A stretch of DNA of 33,912 bases from contig JAQYNQ010000118.1 in assembly GCA_028727785.1 (NCBI GenBank), positions 1 through 33,912 on the forward strand, read 5' to 3'. Below the pieces are notes generated by a model. The model did not search any database, had not been told where the DNA came from, and saw only the letters and a list, made by a program, of their open reading frames with translations. Positions 3,755-33,904 of the stretch are shown one piece after another (position 1 is the stretch's first letter; every line of letters begins with the position of its first letter). Source of the stretch: Eubacteriaceae bacterium (lineage in GTDB: Bacteria; Bacillota; Clostridia; Peptostreptococcales; Anaerovoracaceae). Both the position numbers and the translations under genes were made by a program.

Positions 3755-4648
3755 ATGAATAACAAAAAAGGAAGTATTATTACTCTTGCAGCTGGCATAA
3801 TGTGGGGATTTTCAGGTTGCTGCGGTCAATATATTTTTGATAATTTTAATGCTGACCCCGTATATCTTTCTTCATATCGAATGGTTTTTGCCGGTATCAT
3901 TCTTATTATCATCGGAATAGTGAAAAGCCCGGACAGAATGACGGCCATCTGGCACGATAAAAAAGCCGTGCTGAGACTATTCATATATGCCTGGCTTGGT
4001 GTCACGTTTAATATGTACACATACCTTTGTGCAATCGCACATTCTAACTCGGGTACGGCCACAATTCTGCTGTACATAGGACCTGTTCTTGTTATGATTT
4101 TCAGCTGTTTTACGGCCAGAAAACTGCCCAGCAGAAAAGAGTTTGTGGCTATTATTATGGCAGTGCTGGGGACCTTCATACTTGCAACTCACGGTGACAT
4201 TCATACTATGGTTCTTACTCCTTTAGGCCTGATGTGGGGCCTGCTGTCAGCATTTGCTCTTGCATGCTACACTCTGATTCCGGGTGATCTTCCCGACAGA
4301 TTCGGTGCTGTCACAGTCACAGGCTACGGCATGATTATAGGTGGCATTTCAACGTTCATAGGAACTCGTGCCTGGAATGCACCGATGATTCATGACCCGA
4401 AATGCATAGCCGCTTTCGCTGCTATGGTAATAATAGGAACAGTTCTCACATTCACCCTGTACCTGCTCGGAATAAAACTTATCGGGCCGGTGAAAGCAAG
4501 TATGCTTGCCAGCGTAGAGCCTGTATCAGCAACAGTAATCATGGTTGTCTGGCTGAAGGAATCTTTCCAGTTCCTGGACTTTGTCGGATTCATGTGCATA
4601 TTCGTAACAGTCTTTTTACTTACAAAAAAAGAAGAAGCTGCAGAATGA
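3755..4648 (+). CDS. EamA/DMT-family transporter
   Basis: About 10 hydrophobic segments; N-terminus 'GSIITLAAGIMWGFSGCCGQYIF' and typical EamA repeat architecture. Confidence 0.85.
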   Translation: MNNKKGSIITLAAGIMWGFSGCCGQYIFDNFNADPVYLSSYRMVFAGIILIIIGIVKSPDRMTAIWHDKKAVLRLFIYAWLGVTFNMYTYLCAIAHSNSGTATILLYIGPVLVMIFSCFTARKLPSRKEFVAIIMAVLGTFILATHGDIHTMVLTPLGLMWGLLSAFALACYTLIPGDLPDRFGAVTVTGYGMIIGGISTFIGTRAWNAPMIHDPKCIAAFAAMVIIGTVLTFTLYLLGIKLIGPVKASMLASVEPVSATVIMVVWLKESFQFLDFVGFMCIFVTVFLLTKKEEAAE

Positions 4649-4795: not shown

Positions 4796-5411
4796 CCGCG
4801 CCATGTTCGGTGTTATTTCAAAGGCAAACATGGCGCATGGGCTGGGTCCGCGCCATGTTCGGTTCTATTTCAAAGGCAAACATGGCGCATGAGCGGTATC
4901 CGCGCCATGTTCGTTGTTATTTCAAGGGCAAACATGGCGCCTGAGCTGGGTCCGCGCCATGTTCGGTTCTATTTCAAAGGCAAACATGGCGCCTGAGGCT
5001 GGGTCCGCGCCATGTTCGGCTCTATTTCAAGGGCAAACATGGCGCATGAGCTGTGTCAGCGCCATGTTCGGTTCTATTTCAATGGCAAACATGGCGCATG
5101 AGGCTGTGTCCGCGCCATGTTCGGTTCTATTTCAAAGGCAAACATGGCACATGGGCTGGGTCCGCGCCATGTTCGGCTCTATTTCAAAGGCAAACATGGC
5201 GCATGAGCTGGGTCCGCGCCATGTTCGGTTCTATTTCAAAGGCAAACATGGCGCCTGAGGCTGGGTCCGCGCCATGTTCGGTTCTATTTCAAGGGCAAAC
5301 ATGGCGCCTGAGCTGTATCCGCGCCATGTTCGGTTCTATTTCAAAGGCAAACATGGCACATGGGCTGAATCCGCGCCATGTTCGTTGTTATTTCAAGAGC
5401 AAACATGGCGC
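4796..5411. repeat. Tandem array of 12 palindromic (hairpin) units, 52-53 bp period
   Basis: Unit hairpins at 4798-4836, 4850-4888, 4902-4940, 4954-4992, 5007-5045, 5059-5097, 5112-5150, 5164-5202, 5216-5254, 5269-5307, 5321-5359, 5373-5411. Left arm GCGCCATGTT invariant in 12/12; right arm AACATGGCGC in 10/12 (AACATGGCAC in units 7 and 11); loop 19 nt in all units; linkers 13 or 14 nt, also conserved. Confidence 0.97.
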
Positions 5412-5549
5412 CGAGCCAATTATAAAGGTTTTAATGGAGAGTAAATTGGAATAAAATTATGCGATAATGAATTATTGCGTCAGTTTGATACCAAAAAAAT
5501 CAGGAATACGGTGGATGTATAGAATTTAACCATTATGCATATGTTCTGT

Positions 5550-33894: not shown

Positions 33895-33904
33895 GCGCCA
33901 TGTT
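33895..33904. repeat. Isolated copy of the array arm GCGCCATGTT at the window edge
   Basis: Exact 10-nt match to the invariant left arm of the 4796-5411 array; followed by TGATGC rather than CGG, and truncated by the window end. Confidence 0.4.

Follow-up and report, generated by a model that had tools for sequence, protein, structure and literature searches.

A tandem array of palindromic units in a Eubacteriaceae bacterium and its probable origin from a dispersed MITE-like element

The array and its surroundings

The window analysed here, that is the whole stretch of 33,912 nt, is contig JAQYNQ010000118.1 of assembly GCA_028727785.1 (Eubacteriaceae bacterium, host genome G000). An EamA-family transporter gene (3755-4648) is followed by a gene whose product has a glucosaminidase domain (PF01832; 5709-6230), both on the plus strand, and most of the 1,060-bp intergenic gap between them is filled by a tandem array of 12 palindromic units (4798-5411, plus strand). 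The units start at positions 4798, 4850, 4902, 4954, 5007, 5059, 5112, 5164, 5216, 5269, 5321 and 5373, the final base being 5411. Each unit is 39 bp long and is separated from the next by a linker of 13-14 nt, with a period of 52-53 bp (TRF period 52). The first unit (4798-4836) has the structure GCGCCATGTT-N19-AACATGGCGC and the last one lies at 5373-5411. The left arm GCGCCATGTT is present in all 12 units and the right arm AACATGGCGC in 10 of them, GCAC replacing GCGC in the degenerate right arm (AACATGGCAC) of the units at 5112-5150 and 5321-5359. The loop measures exactly 19 nt in every unit, and TATTTCAA is found in 12 of 12. The arm with one mismatch was found 27 times in the window against 1.7 times expected by chance, and the inner 20-mer with 3 mismatches 12 times against 0.04.

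Downstream of the array, an AT-rich stretch (5412-5512), which may be a remnant of the interior of the element described below, leads to a motif, GGATGTATAGAATTTAACCATTATGCAT (5513-5540), that resembles the right end of the elements of a congener. The extreme right end of the contig (33895-33912) carries the left arm GCGCCATGTT once more (arm at 33895-33904), probably as the start of another array that was cut by the assembly. These three features are also on the plus strand. Short tandem repeats of another kind (CATGGTCGTGGT and variants) were noticed at 1431-1535, inside a CobW-like gene on the minus strand, and presumably correspond to a His-rich stretch.

The number of units, the arms, the loop and the period claimed in the original prediction were all recovered in our recount. 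It had placed the array at 4796-5411; the end stands, and the start moves to 4798, where the first arm begins. The neighbouring gene that it had called lysozyme-like was named roughly right, as it encodes the glucosaminidase domain, and the transporter and the gap of about 1 kb are those given above. It had also correctly set aside a CRISPR array, as there are no unique spacers and the 13-14 nt intervals are related in sequence within arrays. A coding repeat was rejected as well, since the period of 52-53 is not a multiple of 3.

Distribution of the unit in the host and in other genomes

The host genome comprises 1,929,059 bases in 137 contigs, and its gene content (FtsX of the Gram-positive type, RecJ, glutamate dehydrogenase) points to a member of the Bacillota, perhaps Clostridia-like; 1.27 of the 1.93 Mb (141 pieces) were examined directly, and the evidence from congeners consists of loci found by search. 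At least 218 units match GCCATGWT-N17-21-AWCATGGC in the genome, and 49 units have both arms perfect. A unit profile run on the 1.27 Mb gave 250 matches on 52 of the 141 pieces, a few of these being single weak matches. The arrays occupy about 50 sites, which are mostly intergenic, scattered and in many cases at contig ends, and the units within one array point the same way. Arrays with both flanks present contain 3 to 12 units; most arrays, however, extend to a contig end or close to one, where they broke the assembly, and their true lengths are not readable from it. Most array flanks are single-copy in the host, and one larger shared mobile element carrying every array was rejected on that ground.

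Some loci have particular features. L067, L074 and L090 have an upstream flank of about 70 bp in common, and L073 and L090 a downstream flank. The flanks common to several arrays (48-75 bp) carry a second short repeat with GGGGCTGTCGCRTTA, and arrays may in some cases travel with another kind of miniature element. L083, L092 and L094 (contigs C80, C103 and C119) form a sub-family with linkers like GGAGACTRAGGAG and loops with AAATTCAAGGGCA; these linkers differ in sequence from those of the other arrays and are still 13 nt long. At L071 (contig C53, 4636-4757), copies with a period of 40-41 bp (cggccaaggcacgcgccaagacaaggataaacatggcgcga) lie beside normal units, a spacing as in the element modules of the congener G003. 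Upstream of the L065 array (contig C37, 5190-5356) lies the right end of the IS200-type element of contig C133 (L230, contig end), and the junction falls within a unit loop (gtcattatt, then aaatTTCAGAGGTAAACATGG). Judging from this junction, the loop of a unit seems to have been the target of an IS200 insertion, much as REPs are for ISPpu9 (PMC8450116).

A search of the unit against the host and its relatives, as the original prediction had proposed, returned the host sites and no same-arm unit in 12 congeners. The same-arm unit was likewise not found in about 390 genomes of the class, nor in IMG/VR, plasmids or phages. Among 85,488 GTDB species it gave four isolated matches in unrelated taxa, none of the four with a second unit beside it. 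The host's own records were left out of the GTDB, IMG/VR, plasmid and phage searches. Rfam, at gathering and at relaxed thresholds, contained no family matching the unit or the array (the only hits were tRNAs, in the flanks of one congener locus), which agrees with the original prediction in that it had recognised no named family. A family of exact palindromes of the type CCGCCAT...ATGGCGG in other congeners was discarded, its counts being near those of controls.

Related elements in congeners and the sites of the host arrays

In G003, the closest congener, the gap behind the EamA ortholog (80% identity) is without an array and holds related palindromes; the flanking glucosaminidase-domain gene was not found in this genome. 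When these palindromes were searched for in the rest of G003, they proved to belong to a family of at least eight dispersed palindromic elements of ~380 bp with inverted ends. Six full-length copies align over ~380 bp and lie at different genes, and their inverted ends are about 57 bp long with 79-81% identity. The modules of these elements measure 38-39 nt (half-site CCGCCATG, about 22 nt, half-site CATGGCGG) and follow each other at 41-44 bp, with two modules on the left side of the element and two or three on the right. In one copy (L270), the outer module on the left, GCGCCATATTATGCTATTTATGAGGCTCATTATGGCGG, aligns with the 39-nt host unit GCGCCATGATTGATGCTATTTCAGAGGCAAACATGGCGC. The terminal motif of the G003 copies is similar to ATGGCGGATGCATAAAA-N8-TTATGCA. 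Its host counterpart (consensus GGATGTATAGAATTTAACGATTATTCAT, allowing up to 6 mismatches) was found at six places in the 1.27 Mb, each just downstream of an array and one of them at 5513-5540 of the window. Another congener, G001, contains dispersed elements of about 290 bp (L256, L259, L262, L265) with inverted ends AATCTATYATTTATGGCGGAAAA, which are related to the G003 elements and have a cleaner MITE-like form.

We call the element mobile because it is dispersed and inverted-ended; neither a transposase, nor a target-site duplication, nor an excision event was identified for it, the G003 copies having no obvious target-site duplication when judged by eye. Searches with end sequences for a matching autonomous transposon returned only the short elements or chance matches, and a search for terminal inverted repeats across the wider family gave matches at chance level.

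The element and the arrays are linked by their sites. When a profile of the six G003 copies was compared to unit-masked host DNA, the three best matches were all at most 19 bp from arrays (E 1e-4, 1.6e-3 and 0.1), although the zones of 150 bp around units make up only 1.8% of the host sequence. An array-free copy of the element is also present in the host (L277, E 8.5e-17). Six G003 element sites have neighbour genes that can be placed in the host, and at three of them the corresponding host gene has an array on the side where G003 has its element. These are G003 L255 and the window array (EamA, 80%), G003 L264 and the host contig ends C97 and C62 (genes 78% and 88%), and G003 L270 and host L094 (67%). 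The C97 and C62 ends both lie inside same-direction arrays, and the genes next to them are the two neighbours of the single element in G003. As an array is found within 300 bp of 2.05% of the host gene ends, three sites out of six correspond to a P of about 1.7e-4, an approximate value because the six sites were chosen by the analyst and array regions are over-sampled in the fetched stretches. This over-sampling raises the background rate and thus makes the test conservative. Moreover, the loop start TTCGGT/TTCGG of the window units is found in no other host array listed, yet it occurs in the G003 copy at the orthologous site. Against expansion in place, the other three of the six comparable sites have no array in the host. 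Similarly, apart from a few loci, the host array flanks show only weak similarity to the G003 element, so that not every array need derive from an element in place.

Conservation of the half-sites and possible origin of the arrays

Among 231 units, the half-site core (positions 3-8 and 32-37, GCCATG/CATGGC) is about 99% conserved and ATTTCA in the loop about 96%, the remaining loop positions varying freely. Within arrays, the arm core diverges by 1.2% versus 25% for the variable loop positions. As tandem copying duplicates the whole unit, this uneven divergence requires selection or biased repair. Lengths are constrained as well: of 220 pairs of neighbouring half-sites, 219 show a distance of 29 bp, and of 181 linkers, 180 measure 13 or 14 nt, despite 115 distinct linker sequences. 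Pairing is broken by A-A at positions 9/31 in 120 of the 231 units and by C-A at 2/38 in 54, and compensatory changes among units are no more frequent than in shuffles. The outermost pair changed on both sides between species, from C-G in several G003 modules to G-C in the host, which fits the symmetric reading of a dyad. Half-site and spacing are thus kept and pairing is not restored, and these sequence comparisons favour sequence-specific recognition of double-stranded half-sites over RNA structure. The original prediction had suggested selection on structure or on a protein-binding site: the latter fits the data, and the former, in the RNA sense, finds no support, since broken pairs are not compensated. 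Helical phase was also considered for the inverted half-sites, which lie 29 and 23-24 bp apart, but this reading depends on the protein contact point and was dropped; the same-direction period alone was used.

The mean distance between units is 4.7 within arrays versus 6.6 for shuffled labels, from which we infer some homogenisation within arrays. Nearly all host units have GCGC...GCGC in place of the CCGC...GCGG of G003, and this shift suggests that one variant was amplified or that loci exchanged sequence, rather than purely independent expansions.

We therefore consider it probable that the array arose by lineage-specific tandem expansion of a palindromic module from an older, dispersed MITE-like (non-coding, inverted-ended) element. 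The element would have been spread in an ancestor by a transposase. In the host lineage, slippage or unequal recombination would then have increased the number of modules at the site, possibly with some exchange between arrays. The half-sites may have been kept since a DNA-binding protein, either the transposase or a host protein that co-opted the sites, would read them on double-stranded DNA, presumably on one face of the helix, 52-53 bp being about five turns. By default, the arrays are considered a selfish or near-neutral repeat.

Alternatively, the arrays might be phased protein-binding sites used by the host for nucleoid organisation, segregation, gene insulation or as supercoiling sinks, their origin from an element being mere history. 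The retention of half-sites and spacing while the linker sequence drifts would be expected in that case, as would the same-orientation period of about 5 helical turns and the occurrence of about 50 sites across the genome. The arrays also lie within 300 bp of gene 3' ends more often than of 5' ends (32 versus 13, P 0.007, with ORFs from a simple caller), but this bias is equally expected if insertions near promoters were purged. Furthermore, the absence of the unit from 12 congeners indicates that it is not needed by the genus, its copy number and sites resemble a mobile-repeat expansion, and no binding protein was identified, so that we regard host use as unlikely.

A transcribed hairpin array, acting as a structured RNA platform, a sponge or a source of processed small RNAs, is much less probable. 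The window unit folds at -15.8 kcal/mol (z -4.2) and its complement at -18.9 kcal/mol (z -6.3), but a good folding energy is expected of any such palindrome, and the A-A mismatch in the stem of more than half of the units, the lack of compensatory changes beyond shuffles and the lack of an Rfam match all speak against it.

Just as improbable is that the repeat is of the REP/BIME type and owes its spread to a RAYT (TnpA-REP) or an IS200/IS605 transposase. Like REPs (PMC3733652, PMC3116915, PMC8266576), the host arrays are dispersed intergenic palindromes grouped in tandem clusters. In P. fluorescens SBW25, REPs can form tandem arrays with even spacing, of up to 12 sequences (PMC3116915). Their 39-nt unit, with at least 218 copies at about 50 loci, agrees with the 20-50 nt palindrome and the many dispersed extragenic copies of REPs. 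However, REPs are by definition palindromes with the tetranucleotide GTAG (or CGTC) at their foot (PMC3733652, PMC8266576), and a position-by-position comparison of the 115 distinct linkers revealed no conserved tetranucleotide of that type beside the stem. The host genome has two Y1 transposase (Y1_Tnp) genes, but both are IS200/IS605 TnpA by NCBIfam (IS200 equivalog) and below the RAYT cut-off, and neither is flanked by units (none on the C68 or C133 stretch); no RAYT gene flanked by repeats was found in this genome. The congener element also differs from IS200/IS605 in having inverted ends. Neither of the Y1 transposases in the host seems to be the source. The REP/BIME-like element amplified in tandem of the original prediction was thus right in kind, as an expanded module of a dispersed mobile-type element, and not as a REP by definition. 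Hundreds of copies, conserved ends and length-constrained but less conserved spacers are shared with the REP/BIME/REPIN sequences of Pseudomonas and enterobacteria, from which the host arrays differ by their long 19-nt loop, by one-direction units at a 52-53 bp period and by parent elements with inverted ends.

The probable parent resembles MITEs such as the Correia elements and the enterobacterial RU elements, being short, non-coding, palindromic, dispersed at unrelated sites (six aligned G003 copies) and bounded by terminal inverted repeats. Unlike in the MITEs described in the literature found, a terminal module would here have been multiplied into fixed-period arrays. The host arrays may also be likened to the mycobacterial MIRU-type repeats, which are intergenic and arranged head-to-tail with a unit near 53 bp. 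MIRUs are not known to be arrays of palindromic half-sites that derive from an inverted-ended element. NIME/dRS3 arrays of Neisseria are intergenic as well and built round a short inverted-repeat motif in hundreds of copies, dRS3 being ATTCCC-N8-GGGAAT (20 bp, about 700 copies), combined with RS elements of 30-160 bp (PMC3898611). The host arrays do not belong to this family, as they consist of one 39-bp unit at a constant period and differ in unit sequence and architecture.

Besides this origin, it is conceivable, although rather improbable, that the end module has turned into phased DNA platforms all over the genome of this one species. In these about 50 arrays, a dedicated protein that serves chromosome organisation or gene insulation would bind two half-sites in every 52-53 bp, and protein and half-site would have changed in concert between sister species (CCGCCATG to GCGCCATG). 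A limited literature search found no description of a MITE whose end module had expanded in tandem at about 50 sites to give arrays of constant period. The arrays coincide with many assembly breaks, which matters to users of such genomes. Bacterial palindromic repeats usually appear fully formed, unlike the case here. A comparison of individual sites can take in the parent element, its position in a sister genome and the expanded form, which makes the step from element to array testable.
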